In this document: positions 3,122 through 29,005 of the stretch, piece after piece
How positions within the stretch are numbered: the stretch's first letter is position 1
Layout: every line of letters begins with the position of its first letter
Assembly (NCBI RefSeq): GCF_900098745.1
Contig: NZ_FQTT01000013.1
Coordinates: 124,001-188,000 of the forward strand
From: Actinomyces glycerinitolerans
GTDB taxonomy: Bacteria > Actinomycetota > Actinomycetes > Actinomycetales > Actinomycetaceae
Direction: 5' to 3'
DNA: 64,000 nucleotides
Notes under the pieces: generated by a model
What the model was told of the DNA's origin: nothing
Seen by the model: only the letters and a program-made list of their open reading frames with translations
Databases searched by the model: none
Position numbers and translations under genes: made by a program

Positions 3122-3192
3122 AGGTGGGTACCGGATTCGAACCGGTGTAAACGGCTTTGCAGGCCGGTGCCTAACCTCTCGGCCAACCCACC
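3122..3192 (-). tRNA. tRNA-Cys (GCA)
   Basis: Cloverleaf on the minus strand with acceptor stem GGTGGGT/ACCCACC, anticodon GCA and discriminator U, which is the usual cysteine identity base. It lies one base from the tRNA-Val gene, so the two are surely processed from one transcript. Confidence 0.97.
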
Positions 3193-3224
3193 AATGAGAG
3201 GCTGGGAGGACCCCCGCTCCTCGG

Positions 3225-3297
3225 AGCGGATGACGGGACTCGAACCCGCGACCCTCACCTTGGCAAGGTGATGCTCTACCAACTGAGCCACATCCGC
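3225..3297 (-). tRNA. tRNA-Gly (GCC)
   Basis: Cloverleaf on the minus strand with acceptor stem GCGGATG/CATCCGC, anticodon GCC in a CACCTTGCCAAGGTG arm, and T-arm CGGGTTCGAGTCCCG. It is the first gene of the minus-strand order Gly-Cys-Val. Confidence 0.97.
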
Positions 3298-3451
3298 ATG
3301 TTCAACGCCTTGGGGCCCATGCGTTCCCCTGAGCGCTGCTGAACCATACCATCCAGCCGGGGCCGGGTGGCAAATGCACGGGCGGTGATCCACCTCACCG
3401 GTCCTCCGTTTGCCGCGGGGGCCTCGGTCCCGCTAGTGTCTGCACCGCACC

Positions 3452-3524
3452 GGGCGATTGGCTCAGGGGTTAGAGCGCCTCGTTCACACCGAGGAGGTCA
3501 CTGGTTCGATTCCAGTATCGCCCA
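3452..3524 (+). tRNA. tRNA-Val (CAC)
   Basis: Cloverleaf on the plus strand with acceptor stem GGGCGAT/ATCGCCC and anticodon CAC. Its acceptor and T-arm are almost the same as in the minus-strand tRNA-Val (GAC) 330 bp away, so the two valine genes are close paralogues in opposite orientation. A strong hairpin follows 14 bp downstream. Confidence 0.97.
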
Positions 3525-3538
3525 CCGGAAGCATGCAT

Positions 3539-3572
3539 GTGAGGCCCCGGACCAAGCGGTCCGGGGCCTCAC
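3539..3572 (+). terminator. Hairpin terminator of tRNA-Val (CAC)
   Basis: A perfect 15-bp stem (GTGAGGCCCCGGACC with its complement) closes a 4-base loop (AAGC). It begins 14 bp after the tRNA. There is no U-tract, as is common for actinobacterial terminators. Confidence 0.85.
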
Positions 3573-3750
3573 TCGTGTGCAGGCTCAGGAGCTGCGGGTT
3601 ATCGGCTCGAGCGCGTGCGGTTCGGGGGCGTAGTGAGTTCGTCGGCGCGAATGTGTTGCTCGAGACCGGTGTTGTGGCCTCTGCCGGCTGGTTCGTTCGG
3701 CCTGGCCTTTGTGCGGGTGGCAGTGTCCGGCGCCGGGGCCGGGACGGCTT

Positions 3751-4054: not shown

Positions 4055-5434
4055 TCAGCCCAGCCGGGCGCCGTCGGCGATCACCCCGGGTGCCCCCGTC
4101 TCGGTCACGGTCGCGTCCCCGGTGGCGACGACGTCGGCCCCGAAGGTCCAGTCGCCCCGCACCGTCAGGCTGCGTGCGTCGCGGATGGAGGGGACCCCGT
4201 GCGGGAAGCGCGCCTCGAAGTCGGCGATCCGCTTGTAGTAGCGCGGATCCAGGTCGACCACGCAGGCCTGCTCGGGCACCTGCTGCAGCAGCCCGTCGGC
4301 ATCCACCGCATACACGTCCGAACGGACCAGCAGCAGGTCATTGGTGGTCTTGACCGGCAGGAAGCGGCTGCGCGGCACCTCCACGGCGGTGGCGCCGTCG
4401 AAGGCCTCCACGGCGGCGCCCATGGCGGTTTCCAGCTGGATGACCGGCGTCGACTCGGGGTCGGCGGGGTCGACCGTCTTGGCGTTGCGGATCAGCGGCA
4501 GCCCCAGAATGCCGTTTCGCTCGGTCAGCGTGTCCCGCAGCACCTCCAGGTCGAACCAGAGGTTATTGGTGTGGAAGAAGGGGTGGCGGAACTGGTCGGT
4601 GAAGTAGTGCATCTCCTCGGGCGGGGTCTGCGCGGTGTCGCGCAGGATGATGCGGCCGTCCGCCTTGCGCACCGCCAGGTGGCCGCCCTTGACGTCGGCG
4701 GGGGTGCGCCTGCACAGCTCGGGGGCGTAGGGGGCGCCGGAGGCGGCGAACCAGCCGGCGATGCGGGCGCTCGGGGCCGCGCCCAGGTTGTCCGAGTTGG
4801 AGGTCATCGCGTACTTGTAGCCGCGTTCCAGCAGTGCGTCCAGCACGCCGGAGGCCACCAGGGCGGTGTAGATGTCGCCGTGGCCGGGCGGGCACCACTC
4901 CAGGCTCGGGTCCGCCTCCCACTGCACCGGGGTGAGGTCGTCGGCGCGCAACTTGGGCTCCCGGTTCTGCAGGAAGTCCAGCGGGATCCCCTCCACCTCG
5001 ATGCCCGGGTGGGCGGCGAGGGCCGCCAGCGTGTCCTCGCGGGTGCGGAAGGAGTCCATGAAGATCAGTGGCAGGGTGACGTCATAGCGGGCACGGGCGG
5101 TCATCACCTGATCCACCAGCAGGTCCAGGAAGCTCTTGCCGTCGCGCACCGGCAGCAGCGACTTGGCCCGGTCCATGCCCATGGAGGTGCCGAGCCCCCC
5201 GTTGAGCTTGATCAGGACGGTCTTGCTCAGTGCCTCGCGGGCCGCGGCGTCGTCGACCTCGACGTCGTCGATCGAGTCGATCTGCGTAAGCGGCTCGATG
5301 GTGTCCTCGGGGACGAGCCCGGTGGCTCCCTCCTCAAGGGCGCGGTAGTAGTGGCTGAAAACGTCGATGGCCTGCTCGGCGACGCCGGCGTCGCGCATCT
5401 TTGCCTGGGCAGCGGCCAATCCGGTGGTGCTCAT
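4055..5434 (-). CDS. UTP-glucose-1-phosphate uridylyltransferase (UDPGP family)
   Basis: This enzyme makes UDP-glucose from UTP and glucose-1-phosphate for cell-wall and capsule sugars and trehalose. The 459-residue protein is of the large, eukaryote-like UDPGP family rather than the short bacterial GalU type. The nucleotide-binding motif KLNGGLGTSMGMDRAKS is at residues 76-92. NSDNLG near residue 218 and the later KTTNDLLLVRSDVY are also family features. The C-terminus is the expected left-handed beta-helix region. The ATG at 5434 is the only reasonable start. The gene stands alone, with phased palindromic arrays in the gaps on both sides. Confidence 0.93.
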   Translation of the reverse strand: MSTTGLAAAQAKMRDAGVAEQAIDVFSHYYRALEEGATGLVPEDTIEPLTQIDSIDDVEVDDAAAREALSKTVLIKLNGGLGTSMGMDRAKSLLPVRDGKSFLDLLVDQVMTARARYDVTLPLIFMDSFRTREDTLAALAAHPGIEVEGIPLDFLQNREPKLRADDLTPVQWEADPSLEWCPPGHGDIYTALVASGVLDALLERGYKYAMTSNSDNLGAAPSARIAGWFAASGAPYAPELCRRTPADVKGGHLAVRKADGRIILRDTAQTPPEEMHYFTDQFRHPFFHTNNLWFDLEVLRDTLTERNGILGLPLIRNAKTVDPADPESTPVIQLETAMGAAVEAFDGATAVEVPRSRFLPVKTTNDLLLVRSDVYAVDADGLLQQVPEQACVVDLDPRYYKRIADFEARFPHGVPSIRDARSLTVRGDWTFGADVVATGDATVTETGAPGVIADGARLG

Positions 5435-5447
5435 GGGAAAAGGCTAT

Positions 5448-5477
5448 CCCACCGCGCCCAAGTCTCCGTATCAAAGT
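5448..5477 (+). repeat. 30-bp direct repeat, copy 1
   Basis: This copy matches 5790-5819 at 29 of 30 positions; both contain CAAGTCTCCGTATCAAAGT. The two copies enclose 312 bp that hold the phased array B. This copy lies 14 bp upstream of the pyrophosphorylase start codon. Confidence 0.9.
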
Positions 5478-5613
5478 GGCCGCTCGCGCTTGTAGGGGTG
5501 GTCGGCCGCCAGGCGAAGGCTGTACGTGGGGAAGGAGAGGCAACGGGACGTTCTCACCGGACAAAGGACCTCCTCGGGCCAATGAGGACGTTGCCGGAAC
5601 TGCGTCGGGGGTG

Positions 5614-5766
5614 GACGGTTCGTGTGTTCCAGTGACGGTTCGTCAGGTAGCAGCAACGATTCGGCATGAACCGCGACGGTTCGTACCCCTACCCCACGAA
5701 CCGTCGCAAGAAGTGCCGAATCGTCGACCGCAACGTACGAACCGTCAGGCCAACACACAAACCGTC
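5614..5766. repeat. Dyad-symmetric array of eight 10-bp words, exactly 20/21-bp phased (array B)
   Basis: Four GACGGTTCGT-like words start at 5614, 5634, 5655 and 5675. Four reverse-complement words start at 5696, 5716, 5737 and 5757. The steps are 20, 21, 20, 21, 20, 21, 20, an average of 20.4 bp or two helical turns. Each left word has its partner at the same distance from position 5690. The one divergent word, ACGATTCGGC (third), is mirrored by a divergent sixth word. The array sits between divergent genes. The rest of the 421-bp gap holds only the flanking direct repeats; a leftward 102-codon frame across it looks like chance. Confidence 0.92.
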
Positions 5767-5789
5767 GCGCCTGATCCACCGCCCATCAG

Positions 5790-5819
5790 CCCACCGCGTC
5801 CAAGTCTCCGTATCAAAGT
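5790..5819 (+). repeat. 30-bp direct repeat, copy 2
   Basis: Second copy of the repeat at 5448-5477, with one mismatch (T for C near the left end). It ends 36 bp before the start codon of the first DUF2339-like gene. Confidence 0.9.
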
Positions 5820-5855: not shown

Positions 5856-8156
5856 ATGGATTCCCAAGAGCGCGCACGATTCCATGAGGTGATCGCGCGT
5901 CTGGACGCCCTGGAGCGTGAGGTCGGACGGTTGGAGGGACAAGTCGCCCGGCTGTCCTCCGGGCCCGCCACCACGCTGCCCTCCGGACCCGCCACCCGGC
6001 AGCCCGCCCGGGACATGCCCACTACCGCCTACGCTCCCGATCCGTATGCACCCCCACAGCAGCAGCCACCGCAGCCGTTGTGGGCGCCGCAGCCGACGCC
6101 GCCGCGCTCCCCCGACGCCGGAGCCCCGCCCGCCACCCAATTGCCTCCGGCGCGGGAGGGTAACTTGGGCGCCTATCTGCTGTCCGGCGCGGCGGCGCTG
6201 CTGGTGCTGCTGGCCGCGGTGAGCCTCATTGCGCTGGTTTGGGAGCAGATTCCCGACGGCTGGAAGGTCGGCGGGCTCGGACTGTTGTCCCTCGCCATGG
6301 TCTCCGCGGGCACCACGCTGGCGGAGAATCGGCCCCGCCTGCGGGTGGCGGCGGCCACCGTAACCGGTACGGGTGGGGCGTTGGGCTTCGTAACCATCAT
6401 TGGCGCGGTCCTGCTCGTGCACCTACAAACCCCCGTGGCCATGGCGCTGATGGCCGCCTGGGGGTTCGTGCTCCTACTGGTGTCCTGGACCGCCGGGCAA
6501 TTCTTCACCGCCGTGATTTCCGCCCTTGGCGCCCTGGTCGCGGTTGATTTCGCGTGGGTGCAGGCCAATGCGCATCCGGGCCGGGCGGCGTTGGTGTGGA
6601 TGCTCGTGAACGGCTACTTGATCGCCCTCGCGGCGGTGTCCGCGCTGCTGGCGCACTTTGCGCGGCGGATGCGCCATGCCGTCTGGCTGCCCACCACCTC
6701 CATGGTGGTCACGGCGACGGCGCTGGTGATCGGGCCGACCGTTCTTCTGCGCGGTGGGTCCCCGACCGGGGTCGCCCTGCTGTGTCTACCGGCCGTCGTG
6801 CTGCTGGTTCAGGCGCATCACTCCGGGCGGCTGCTGTCACGCACGGTCGGGCGCGCCGCGGCCGCTTGGGAATGGGGCGCCGTGGGTGTCGCAATGGTGC
6901 TGGCCGTGCTGCACCTGGGACTGGATCCGGCGGCCCCGCCGGCGGCCCGTGCCCTGACCGGCGTGGTGCTCCTGGTGGCTGCGGTCGCCTCCACCGCGGC
7001 GCTGCTTCCCGACGGCGGTACGGCTGCCTGGCCGCGGAACGTGGCCGGGGTGAACCTTGGGGTGATGGTGGGCATCGGTGCCGCCGTCTTCGCCGTGGAG
7101 CCCCGCCTGCTCCTGCCTGCGGTGCTGGCGGTGGGGCTGGCCGGCGCCCCGGTGGTCCGCGTCGGGCAAGCCGCGCCGATCCCGATACTGCCACTGGCGG
7201 GTCTGCCGGCGTTCGCGCTCGCCACCCGAGCACATTCAGACAGGGACGCCGTCGGACTCGCACTCGTCGCGGTGGCCACCGCCGCCGGCCTGAGCCTGCT
7301 GCTGGAGAGCCGACTAACCCCGGCCCGGAGCCCCGGGCGCGCGCAACAGGCACGCGTCGACCTGCTGACCGCGGCCGTCTGGCTGATCGGCGCGGACCTG
7401 GTGGTGGTGCTGCCCGCGCTGGTCGCGCGGCTGGTCCCGGGCGGCTCCGCAGCCCCGCTGGTGGGTGGTGTGTGCGCCCTGGCGCTGACGGGCCTGGGGC
7501 TGTTCACCCGTGGATGCACTCCACTCGCGCTCGCCTCGGGGACCCACGCCGGCGCCATCGAGGGCGCAAATGGGCCGCGCACGCCGCGAATTCCCGCGAC
7601 TCCGGTCATCGGCTGGGTGGGGTTCGCGCTGCTGTGCCTGCAGGCGCTCGTCATCCTGGCGCGCGCGGATTCCGCGGGCGACCGGCTGGTGGCGGCACCG
7701 CTGGTGGTGCTGGGCCTGGTGCTCGCGGTGGCGGCGGCCCGCCTGTTGCTGCCCTGGCTGCGGCGCGCGGGCGCCGGCACGGCCACCGCCATCTCGCTCA
7801 GCGTGGCGCTGTGGTGGTCGGTAATGGTCCTCACCGGTGCGTCGGCGACCTCGTTGCTGGTCACCGGTGTGGTGCTGGCGACCGGCGCAGTGGGCATTGT
7901 GCTCGGCTTCCGGGCGCGGGCGGTCGCACTGCGCCACTACGGGCTGACACTGGTGATGCTGGTGGTGGTCAAGCTCGCGGTGCTGGACCTGGCGGACGGG
8001 AACTCGCTCACCCAGATCCTGGCACTGCTGGTGGCCGGGCTGGCGTGTTTCTGCCTGTCTTTGGCATACAACCGCTTCGCGCGCGAGCAGGCCCGATATG
8101 CTGCCGGGACGGGCCCGGCGCCGGCCGACGATCATCGGGTGCCGCCCTACGCCTGA
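5856..8156 (+). CDS. DUF2339-like polytopic membrane protein, first of two tandem paralogues
   Basis: A 766-residue protein. Residues 5-36 form a short coiled coil (LDALEREVGRLEGQVARL), followed by a proline-rich linker to about residue 105. The rest is a long run of about 20 hydrophobic helices. The ending, LRHYGLTLVMLVVVKLAVLDL followed by a helix and a short basic tail, resembles the C-terminus of DUF2339 and related predicted membrane proteins. No function is established for the family. The next gene is a full-length paralogue with the same layout. The ATG at 5856 is preceded by CCGGATCCTTGA, which also precedes the paralogue's ATG. Confidence 0.85.
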   Translation: MDSQERARFHEVIARLDALEREVGRLEGQVARLSSGPATTLPSGPATRQPARDMPTTAYAPDPYAPPQQQPPQPLWAPQPTPPRSPDAGAPPATQLPPAREGNLGAYLLSGAAALLVLLAAVSLIALVWEQIPDGWKVGGLGLLSLAMVSAGTTLAENRPRLRVAAATVTGTGGALGFVTIIGAVLLVHLQTPVAMALMAAWGFVLLLVSWTAGQFFTAVISALGALVAVDFAWVQANAHPGRAALVWMLVNGYLIALAAVSALLAHFARRMRHAVWLPTTSMVVTATALVIGPTVLLRGGSPTGVALLCLPAVVLLVQAHHSGRLLSRTVGRAAAAWEWGAVGVAMVLAVLHLGLDPAAPPAARALTGVVLLVAAVASTAALLPDGGTAAWPRNVAGVNLGVMVGIGAAVFAVEPRLLLPAVLAVGLAGAPVVRVGQAAPIPILPLAGLPAFALATRAHSDRDAVGLALVAVATAAGLSLLLESRLTPARSPGRAQQARVDLLTAAVWLIGADLVVVLPALVARLVPGGSAAPLVGGVCALALTGLGLFTRGCTPLALASGTHAGAIEGANGPRTPRIPATPVIGWVGFALLCLQALVILARADSAGDRLVAAPLVVLGLVLAVAAARLLLPWLRRAGAGTATAISLSVALWWSVMVLTGASATSLLVTGVVLATGAVGIVLGFRARAVALRHYGLTLVMLVVVKLAVLDLADGNSLTQILALLVAGLACFCLSLAYNRFAREQARYAAGTGPAPADDHRVPPYA

Positions 8157-8281: not shown

Positions 8282-10714
8282 ATGGATACGGTCAGCAGTG
8301 AGCAGCTCGAAGAGATCATCGGGCGCCTGACAACCCTCGAACGCAAACTCGACTGGGTGGCCAAACGGATCTCCCGTGACGGGTACCCCCTCGATTCTGC
8401 GGCGCGTCCGCAGCCGCGCCCCGCGCCGGTCGCCTCCCCACCCGCCCGGCCGATAACTACGCGGACGTCGTCCTCCTCACCGGCCGCGGCTCCCGCGGTG
8501 CAACAGCCCCGGACCCCGGCCCTGGCCACATACCCGCCGTCCAAGCCCGTTCTGAAGGCGCCCTCCACCCCATCGCAGAAGGCCCCGACGGCAGTGGCCC
8601 CCAGCGGCGCCACGAGCGCCGCCGACAGCGACCCGTTCGCCATGCGGCCCATGCGGGAGAAGCGCAACGAGGGCAATATCGGCAGATACGTCCTGTCCGG
8701 GGCGGCCGCGTTCCTGATCGTGTCCGCCGCCGTGAGCCTCATAGCCCTGGTCTGGGACCAGATTCCCGACGTCGTGAAGGTAACGGCGCTGGGCGTCGTC
8801 GCCGTCTCCCTGGTCGCCGCGGGCACGGTCGTCAACCAGAAGCGGGAGCGGCTGCAGGTGGCGGCCGCCACCCTCACGGGCACGGGCGGTGCGCTCGGCT
8901 TCGTCGCCGTCATCGGTGCCGCCCTGATCGCCGGACTAAGCCCGGTCGCCGCCCTGGGACTGATGGTGGCCTGGGCCTTCGTGCTGCTGCTGGTGTCCTG
9001 CGTCACCGCGCAGTTCTTCACCGCCGTCATCTCCATGCTGGGGGCGCTGGTGACCGTCGGCTTCACCACCTGGCAGGTGGCAACGCACCCGGAACAGGCG
9101 GTCCTGGCCTGGACCCTGATCGATATCTACACCGTCACCCTGGCCGTGGTGGCGGCGATACTGCCGCGCTTCACGCCGCGCATGCGCCTGGCGCCCTGGC
9201 TGCCGACCACCTCCATGGTGGTCACCGGCACCGTGCTGCTGGCCGGCCCCTCCCGGCTGCTGGTGGCTCAGCCGCTCACCGGCATCGTGCTGCTCGCAGC
9301 GCCCTGCGCGGTGCTCCTGGCGCAAGCGCATCACTCCACGCGTCTGCTGGCCGGAGCCGGAGCAAGGGAGGCCGCCGGATACGAGTGGGCGGTCACCGGC
9401 ATCATCCAGGCGCTGGCGTTGCTAATCCTCGCGTCCGCTAACGACGTGACGTCGTCCACGCGCAATGGCATGGCCATGTCCTTCCTGGTCCTGGTCTGCC
9501 TGGCCACCGCCGCCCTGCTCCCGCAGCGAGCCACCTCCCCGTGGCTGCGCGTCGTCGCGGCCGTGAACCTGGGTACGGTGGTCTGCGTCGCGGCGGCCGT
9601 CTTCGCTTTGAATATCGCGCTGCTACCGCCTGCGGTGGCAGCGGTGGCACTGGCCGCCGTTCCCGTGGTACGTGTCGGTTACAGCGCCCCCGTGCTGGTG
9701 CTCCCGCTGTTCAGCACAGCCGCGCTGCTGGCAGTGTTCTCCCCCGATCGCAGCACCGTGATGCTGGCCATTCTGGCCGTACTCATCGGCGTGCTTCCGA
9801 CCGCTCCTCTGGAGGCGCTGCTGGCTCCGCCCCCGCATTCCGAGGAGCACGCGAACCGGCCCTCGTGGCTGTCCGCGGGGATGTGGGTCGCGGCCGGTCA
9901 GTTGGTGCTGATCATCCCCCGGCTGCTGGACCGGCTGGTTCCCGCCGGCGGTCTCGGCGGGGCCGGCCGGATCGCGGCGCCGCTACTGGCGGGTGCCCTG
10001 GCGCTGGCGTTGGCCGGCATGGGCGCGTTCACGCCCCAATGCAGCCCGCGCATGCTCGTCTCGGGTCGGCGCGCAGGACAGCTGGCGGGCGCAACCGACC
10101 TGCGCAGCCCGCTCGTGCCCACACCACCGGCTCTGGCGTGGCTGGGCGAGGCACTGTTGACGGCGCTGGCCGTCGCGGTGCTGGTACGCGCCGACTCCCT
10201 GGGCTCTCCGCTGCTGGCGGCGCCGTTGGTTGCCCTGGCGCTGGCCCTCGTGGTGGTCGGCGGGCGAATGCTGCTGCCCTGGCTGCGGCACTCCGCAATG
10301 TCACTCACCGTGACACTGACCATTGCGCTCTCGCAGAGCCTCGCCCTGTGGTGGTCGGTGATGATCCTCACCGGCGCATCCGCAGCTTCTCTGCTGATCA
10401 CCGGTGTGGTGCTGGCGACCGGTGCCGCCTGCATCGTCATCGGATTCCGGCTGCGCGCCACCACACTGCGCCACTACGGGCTCACCCTGGTACTGCTGGT
10501 GGTGTTCAAGCTGGCCGTGGTGGATCTGGCCGGACAAAACTCGCTGTCGCGGATCCTGGCGCTCATGGTCGCCGGCGTCGTGTGCTTCGGGCTGTCGCTC
10601 GCATACAACCATTTCGCGCAGGAGCAGGAGCAGGCGGAGCACGGCGCGATCGGAGCCGACTCCGCCGGCGGCATCAGTCCAGCAGGTCGCGGTGGATCGT
10701 CGTATCCCCGGTGA
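8282..10714 (+). CDS. DUF2339-like polytopic membrane protein, second paralogue
   Basis: An 810-residue paralogue of the preceding gene, aligned along its whole length. It has an N-terminal coiled coil (LEEIIGRLTTLERKLDWVAKR), a Ser/Pro/Ala-rich linker to about residue 130, then about 20 helices. Shared blocks include GAAAFLIVSAAVSLIALVWD and LRHYGLTLVLLVVFKLAVVDL. The duplication covers gene and leader, since CCGGATCCTTGA precedes both start codons. The linkers differ most, so the membrane part is the conserved functional unit. Its last 41 bp overlap the 3' end of the convergent pdxT gene. Function is unknown. Confidence 0.85.
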   Translation: MDTVSSEQLEEIIGRLTTLERKLDWVAKRISRDGYPLDSAARPQPRPAPVASPPARPITTRTSSSSPAAAPAVQQPRTPALATYPPSKPVLKAPSTPSQKAPTAVAPSGATSAADSDPFAMRPMREKRNEGNIGRYVLSGAAAFLIVSAAVSLIALVWDQIPDVVKVTALGVVAVSLVAAGTVVNQKRERLQVAAATLTGTGGALGFVAVIGAALIAGLSPVAALGLMVAWAFVLLLVSCVTAQFFTAVISMLGALVTVGFTTWQVATHPEQAVLAWTLIDIYTVTLAVVAAILPRFTPRMRLAPWLPTTSMVVTGTVLLAGPSRLLVAQPLTGIVLLAAPCAVLLAQAHHSTRLLAGAGAREAAGYEWAVTGIIQALALLILASANDVTSSTRNGMAMSFLVLVCLATAALLPQRATSPWLRVVAAVNLGTVVCVAAAVFALNIALLPPAVAAVALAAVPVVRVGYSAPVLVLPLFSTAALLAVFSPDRSTVMLAILAVLIGVLPTAPLEALLAPPPHSEEHANRPSWLSAGMWVAAGQLVLIIPRLLDRLVPAGGLGGAGRIAAPLLAGALALALAGMGAFTPQCSPRMLVSGRRAGQLAGATDLRSPLVPTPPALAWLGEALLTALAVAVLVRADSLGSPLLAAPLVALALALVVVGGRMLLPWLRHSAMSLTVTLTIALSQSLALWWSVMILTGASAASLLITGVVLATGAACIVIGFRLRATTLRHYGLTLVLLVVFKLAVVDLAGQNSLSRILALMVAGVVCFGLSLAYNHFAQEQEQAEHGAIGADSAGGISPAGRGGSSYPR

Positions 10715-28956: not shown

Positions 28957-29005
28957 ATGGGGCCGTCCCCGAGTGTTACCCATGGGCTCCGGGTCGTCCC
29001 GGGCA
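28957..29005 (-). promoter_or_regulatory. Guanidine-II (mini-ykkC) riboswitch
   Basis: Two small hairpins on the minus strand each present an ACGR tetraloop: CCGGG-ACGA-CCCGG (28989-29002) and GGGG-ACGG-CCCC (28959-28970). Paired ACGR hairpins are the defining feature of this riboswitch. The second hairpin ends 15 bp before the exporter start and adjoins its purine-rich ribosome-binding site, so guanidine probably frees translation. Confidence 0.88.

Follow-up and report, generated by a model that had tools for sequence, protein, structure and literature searches.

Between two divergent genes of the 64-kb stretch of genome G000 that was analysed (hereafter the window; locus identifiers L and genome identifiers G are used as given), eight words of 10 bp, four forward and then four reverse, are laid out over 153 bp. 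This raises the question of how such an array came to lie there, and whether its words serve as docking sites for a protein, as the arms of a hairpin, as a segregation site or only as the cargo of a mobile element. Word starts follow one another at steps of 20/21/20/21/20/21/20 bp and the centre is crossed without interruption of the phase; on re-reading the sequence, the eight starts and the unbroken alternation across the centre at 5690, which an earlier note on this DNA had described, proved exact (Table 1). The divergent setting given in that note also held, the left neighbour being a UTP-glucose-1-phosphate uridylyltransferase gene (4055-5434, minus strand) and the right neighbour a DUF2339 membrane protein gene (5856-8156, plus strand).

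According to the chain finder, the array is the single chain of at least four words at 20/21-bp steps in the 64-kb window, and none of 12 simulated first-order Markov windows contained a chain of at least four phased words. Three further features of the window were observed. The flank at about 5530-5613 matches itself at a lag of 20 (0.36) and equally well at a lag of 17; the frames 5856-8156 and 8282-10714 (plus strand) are adjacent and resemble DUF2339-type membrane paralogues, the Pfam check applying to the first frame; and a Guanidine-II riboswitch lies at 28958-29005 on the minus strand (36.6 bits vs a gathering score of 32).

Table 1. Coordinates of the array, its parts and the surrounding element in the window
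Feature	Position	Strand	Basis
Word 1, GACGGTTCGT	5614..5623	+	sequence
Word 2, GACGGTTCGT	5634..5643	+	sequence
Word 3, variant, AACGATTCGG	5655..5664	+	sequence
Word 4, GACGGTTCGT	5675..5684	+	sequence
Array centre, 11 bp, ACCCCTACCCC	5685..5695	.	sequence
Word 5, reverse, ACGAACCGTC	5696..5705	-	sequence
Word 6, reverse variant, CCGAATCGTC	5716..5725	-	sequence
Word 7, reverse, ACGAACCGTC	5737..5746	-	sequence
Word 8, reverse, ACAAACCGTC	5757..5766	-	sequence
15-bp equivalent of the IS481-like target (GT + centre + AC), unoccupied	5683..5697	.	inference from other copies
312-bp inserted element containing the array	5478..5789	.	comparison with the empty site of G012
Possible degenerate ISL3-type left terminal repeat	5478..5504	+	by-eye comparison; weak, unscored
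30-bp direct repeat, left copy	5448..5477	.	repeat search and locus comparison
30-bp direct repeat, right copy	5790..5819	.	repeat search and locus comparison

A dispersed array family with ISL3-type ends

A three-word pattern (at most 3 mismatches) was found in seven of 49 genus genomes (57, 53, 47, 35, 32, 24 and 6 matches), while the arrays were undetected by this pattern in the other 42 and the reversed-pattern control gave no match in any of the 49. The seven array genomes are G000, G005, G012, G051, G053, G056 and G058, among them A. ruminis (G012), A. ruminicola (G053) and A. succiniciruminis (G058), so that the array is not unique to one strain; uniqueness would have spoken against the earlier note. 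Searched as DNA, the window region had matches in three of 39 relatives, counting the window genome. Alternating steps (match length 50) were present in 29 of 32 Actinomyces three-word loci, as counted from the listing. Three pattern matches on viral contigs keep to a step of 20 bp throughout (match length 49), and 38 loci outside Actinomyces have uniform steps too (length 49 or 51) and were taken as unrelated on that listing alone.

Gathered from G000, G051 and G005, 98 chains of at least four words, with half arrays and a small number of overlapping ones among them, are intergenic in 97 cases according to our own gene caller, and the family is thus, like REP/BIME, a many-copy intergenic palindromic repeat. 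The gene pairs around the 82 chains with two called neighbours are 30 convergent, 39 tandem and 13 divergent, and the divergent setting of the window copy is atypical for the family. The genome-wide search for phased words that the earlier note had proposed returned many copies in relatives, and the family favours convergent over divergent pairs. This preference, the mobility of the arrays and the centre as a target of insertion sequences (IS) had no place in that note.

Many of the arrays lie within elements of 0.3-1 kb that bear ISL3-type ends. The ISL3-family IS of G005 (PF01610) ends in GGCTCTTCGCGTTTAGGGGTGTAGTAG and, inverted, GGCTCTTCGTGTTTGAGGGTGTGGTGG, and a terminus of this type with no more than 8 mismatches turned up in 118 of 196 correctly oriented searches, vs 7 of 196 for the wrong orientation; both ends accompany 45 of the 98 chains, so that ISL3-family terminal repeats are present at the level of the family. 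So are the 8-bp target duplications of an ISL3-family MITE, which are exact in 9 of 44 distinct two-ended elements and carry 1 mismatch in 7 more, with 0.18 exact duplications expected from shuffled partners. A scan for ISL3 transposases gave matches in four array genomes out of seven (G005, G051, G053 and G058), none in G000, G056 or G012 (82% complete), and further matches in G014 and G061, both of which are without the type-1 array, as the array of the window is called here. A terminator-like hairpin, CCCGAAACCCTCCCGAATGTGGAGGGTTTCGG, recurs with close variants in element flanks (L022, L026), and a similar stretch is present in L062.

At the window site itself, insertion can be read from the related species. 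The same gene junction in G012 (L069) has no array and a single copy of the 30-bp sequence that stands, with 1 mismatch, as a direct repeat on both sides of the window element, and is an empty site, and the junction in G058 (L068) is filled with an orthologous array of nine words. The 30-bp repeat, which the earlier note did not mention as bracketing the array, is present in G058 too and greatly exceeds the 8 bp that the carrier family duplicates; such a duplication is outside what an ISL3-type mechanism explains. Compared with ISL3-family MITEs, the window copy has at best a degenerate left end, no right end and no 8-bp duplication, and by the resemblance of its array alone it is treated here as a presumptive relic of an ISL3-type carrier. 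An origin of the 312-bp element from a plasmid or phage was rejected, as none of 72,556 plasmid and 50,697 phage records matched it.

Given that the words are phased, look cooperative and are dispersed genome-wide, a site for chromosome segregation or nucleoid-domain organisation of the parS kind, as the earlier note had suggested, has to be considered. A slight origin bias of the arrays was seen in G051 (KS p 0.03), in G005 (KS p 0.14) and in G056 (KS p 0.01, for 14 zero-mismatch hits among the matches listed). However, arrays occur all round the chromosome, they were undetected in most genomes of the genus, and in G005, where the control was made, their distribution is that of the ISL3 elements (mean 0.398 vs 0.387, p 0.89), so that clustering at the origin beyond that of mobile DNA was not found. 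The segregation claim is therefore not supported, and a role of the parS kind appears highly improbable.

Phasing and conservation of the words

Since the chain finder permits phased steps alone (20, 21 and 40-42 bp), the step table is partly a product of construction, and most of its loci were obtained with a pattern that itself prescribes 21/20 steps (within halves, 20 bp in 406 cases, 21 bp in 224 and 40-41 bp in 3; at the centre, 21 bp in 82, 20 bp in 2 and 40 bp in 1). The phase was therefore rechecked in loci found without the words. Same-strand word distances of at most 60 bp were 20 or 21 bp in 63 of 73 cases at 31 loci found through flanking genes, with or without arrays, in 52 of 62 at ten loci found through the IS, and in 507 of 563 at loci that were mostly pattern-found. 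The first two of these counts, together with the higher conservation of words than of spacers and flanks, uphold the earlier proposal that the words face one side of the helix, as expected of sites for a DNA-binding protein.

The inverted layout is common to nearly all chains. Four G005 copies (L219, L231, L232 and L233) have an 18-bp centre step and are out of phase, and this subfamily offers a natural test of how much the phase matters across the centre; one G056 ortholog has 6 bp deleted within the array. Both observations count against the docking of a protein at the words. Many of the 29 raw indels within arrays are 20, 21 or 41 bp long, and 1-, 6-, 9- and 39-bp ones occur too. A second word, approximately GGACGTTYTCGGGC, often seems to be present at 20-bp steps in one outer flank, as judged by eye in L032 (2950-3080), L021 and L029.

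Arrays are kept at orthologous sites in several species, which allows the rate of change of words to be compared with that of their surroundings. An earlier ortholog test (words 462/479, spacers 440/487, flanks 2785/3127) was biased because its loci had been selected by the word pattern, and it was replaced by a test with flank-located loci. There, words were identical at 943 of 974 positions (96.8%), spacers at 801 of 885 (90.5%) and flanks, coding sequence included, at 7304 of 8013 (91.1%), in 14 pairs that represent 6 sites and were hand-picked after alignment out of 31 pairs; words exceeded spacers in 13 and flanks in 12 of the 14 pairs. The 17 pairs that were dropped mostly had no alignable array, L240 and L256 having a small aligned part, and among the nine G000 sites that were tried, L182, L184 and L196 yielded no usable flank-located pair. 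Inclusion of L240, whose partial array is identical at 16/20 word and 28/33 spacer positions, gives 96.5% for words and 90.3% for spacers. With one ortholog per site, the counts are 404/420 for words, 333/385 for spacers and 3175/3514 for flanks, and in a looser pool, for which alignment of half or more of the word positions sufficed with or without an array, identity is 0.873, 0.826 and 0.879, respectively. Information per position over 40 non-redundant arrays amounts to 1.42 bits in words and 0.60 bits in spacers. From these comparisons, the words look selected as putative protein-binding sites.

The same data bear on the possibility that the array is an internal passenger repeat of a purely selfish MITE and has no binding role: ISL3-type transposition would spread it, and recombination between copies would keep its words alike. 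This would agree with the ISL3-type ends and target duplications, with the gain and loss of whole units between orthologs, as from slippage, and with the window site of G000 and G058, where spacers (58/73 identical) differ more than flanks (570/595), a hint of copy exchange. Nevertheless, the lower rate of change in words than in the spacers between them is explained neither by slippage nor by conversion, the arrays last at orthologous sites, and three array genomes, including that of the window, gave no ISL3 match, so that a purely selfish element seems unlikely.

Insertion sequences at the array centre

Several G000 arrays are interrupted at or near the centre by foreign DNA, most commonly by an IS of about 1.46 kb (type 1). 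Its transposase of 437 aa has the HTH and integrase-core domains of the IS481 family (PF13551, PF00665, PF13683) and scores 199.9 bits against the NCBIfam IS481 model NF033577, below the cut-off of 224; this model is the best-scoring family, and the IS is therefore called IS481-like. Each of the six full copies in G056 is flanked by a half array on either side, five of them lying at the array centre and one (L281) one word off, and the type-1 IS ends at G000 contig ends, together with one in G058, abut half arrays as well. The 15-bp duplications of the six G056 copies are exact in three and have one mismatch in two, and the sixth (L285, G056:C1 about 1435133) has 15-bp flanks that are reverse-complementary instead of direct, which suggests a rearrangement between two IS copies. 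A left half array apparently precedes the IS remnant of G012 (L271). No array was detectable at five diverged IS fragments (L272, L273, L276, L277 and L280), of which L276, at the G053 junction orthologous to the array site L183, retains word remnants only. In L029, another insert of about 535 bp (3142-3677), one end of which carries repeats like TGTGTCAGGACATCGGTGACACTTGG, interrupts an array one word off centre.

In G005, arrays are present and an IS of this type was not detected; landing is therefore not the sole cause of word conservation. At the right end of the type-1 IS, three repeats fit the array unit minus one base and rank 3, 12 and 19 of 253,526 background scores, the one-base deletion having been allowed after the sequence was viewed. 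The type-1 transposase may read the array words itself.

Insertion at the dyad is also what targeting of a hairpin loop predicts, and a long imperfect RNA or cruciform hairpin had been named in the earlier note as the alternative to protein binding. The array would then be kept for the fold of its transcript or of single-stranded DNA, with the IS aiming at the loop. In a repeat search the window array forms an inverted repeat with arms of 71 nt, 11 nt apart and 72% complementary, its RNA is predicted to fold very stably from both strands (-90 and -98.8 kcal/mol; z -10.4 and -8.3), and the inverted layout of nearly all chains would suit a hairpin as well. However, over the 40 non-redundant arrays the complementarity of mirror spacers was 0.429 vs 0.445 for permuted partners and that of mirror words 0.784 vs 0.787. 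Spacers 1 and 3, on the side of a hairpin, and word 4 were slightly above their permuted partners (9-10% of permutations as high), and spacer 2 was lower (0.393 own vs 0.503 permuted). Since mirror partners do not exceed permuted ones, pairing as such is not maintained, and the overall lack of covariation between paired positions in this test, which a structured RNA should have, weakens the hairpin; given the strong folding of the window copy on both strands, it is weakened and no more. Further points against it are that pairing does not need word steps of 20/21 bp, that Rfam gave no match at the window array and that the insertion at L281 lies off the loop by one word. A hairpin as the reason for the array can thus be regarded as decidedly unlikely, its strong predicted fold notwithstanding.

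A second array family

Transposases 61% identical to that of type 1 are encoded in G007 (4 copies) and G003 (1 copy), and one with 52% identity, with two stop codons, in G061. All six of these type-2 relatives are centred in palindromes of another kind, in which words such as TCGTAGGGTAGGTCGC recur at 20-bp steps, and the duplications beside them are exactly 15 bp in four cases and 14 and 16 bp with one mismatch in the other two. Among 12 genomes searched, a pattern derived from these G007 sites gives 10 to 25 matches on each strand of G007, G003, G061, G022, G006 and G010, a single one in G044 and none in the remaining five, with three matches of the reversed pattern in all; a rough scan suggests that type-2 arrays mostly have two or three words per side. 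The more distant relatives L302 and L303 (44% identity) have no such palindrome at the one end that was viewed; still other transposase relatives have 36-38% identity. The architecture and the habit of the IS recur with another word, though not in all relatives.

The right end of the type-2 IS fits the type-1 unit to some extent (ranks 20 and 59), and its ends do not fit their own type-2 unit (ranks 720 and worse). As a general rule, the identity of the IS-end motif with the array word was therefore rejected, as it fits type 1 and fails type 2.

A putative docking platform and its reader

A separate word-reading protein is, in general, at least as likely as the transposase to be the reader of the words, and the arrays of G005, where no such IS was detected, also favour it. 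No partner gene emerged beside the arrays, no Pfam family being present in more than 3 of the 132 neighbouring proteins scanned (147 frames listed). A DUF559-like gene lies between two arrays, beside a folD-like gene, in G051 (L055, 2914-4543), G005 (L065, 2532-4295) and G000 (L185, 19-1626); it was rejected as a specific partner, with relatives in 45 of 49 genus genomes.

On the combined evidence, the window feature is probably an unoccupied copy of a dispersed protein-docking array, which an IS exploits as a landing site. We infer that a sequence-specific DNA-binding protein would sit on each word along one face of the helix and that the bound proteins would build a complex of two-fold symmetry on the array. 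The IS481-type transposase could then insert at the dyad, either by direct binding to the words or through the protein that occupies them. If the docking reading holds, the arrays combine a constrained platform delivered by a MITE, selection on its words and the landing of a separate IS at the dyad, features usually seen apart, and at least two word specificities exist within one genus. The arrays would offer a natural test system for the target choice of IS481-like transposases and a lead to the DNA-binding protein.

A bolder version of this proposal, which we put forward as doubtful, is that Actinomyces has at least two families of docking arrays, each with a dedicated host protein under selection, and that IS481-type transposons find safe intergenic sites through the complex at the dyad. 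Target choice would then be guided by protein, via dispersed platforms, and not by a fixed DNA sequence or a guide RNA, and the platforms of the first family would have been spread by a different transposon.

Comparison with known systems

A search of the open literature, with subscription papers and preprints outside its scope, found no description of such an array, and the features of the arrays are shared piecemeal with several known systems. With ISL3-family MITEs they have in common the 8-bp duplications and ends resembling those of the resident ISL3 IS of G005, but the interior of the element is a phased word array under constraint, and we know of no ISL3-family MITE with such an interior. 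Eukaryotic Foldback elements have long inverted repeats made of short tandem subunits, as the arrays do; the units of Foldback elements are the ends of the element, whereas the Actinomyces array lies inside its element, separate from the ISL3-type ends. Plasmid partition centromeres (ParR/parC) carry 10- or 20-bp repeats for cooperative binding, and the words of the arrays likewise come every two helical turns; unlike these centromeres, the arrays are chromosomal, dispersed and without specific clustering at the origin.

Small mobile sequences that bear protein-binding motifs such as IHF sites have been described (PMC2229807), and they resemble the array elements in being non-autonomous and in bringing a binding motif to many sites, but differ in carrying single motifs, in contrast to many phased words in two-fold symmetry here. 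By analogy, the closest parallel is offered by REP/BIME sequences and their insertion sequences. According to two papers (PMC1525189, PMC2817692), REP/BIME are dispersed intergenic palindromic repeats with reported binding of IHF, gyrase and Pol I, and IS1397, ISKpn1 and IS621 are insertion sequences that target their units. The Y1 (RAYT) transposase associated with such systems (PF01797) was found in none of the seven array genomes. Both systems consist of dispersed intergenic palindromes into which certain IS insert. Nevertheless, the Actinomyces unit is a phased multi-word array, carried with ISL3-type ends, instead of the one palindrome of a REP, and the IS that targets it is IS481-like and thus outside the five families named in a passage of PMC1525189.
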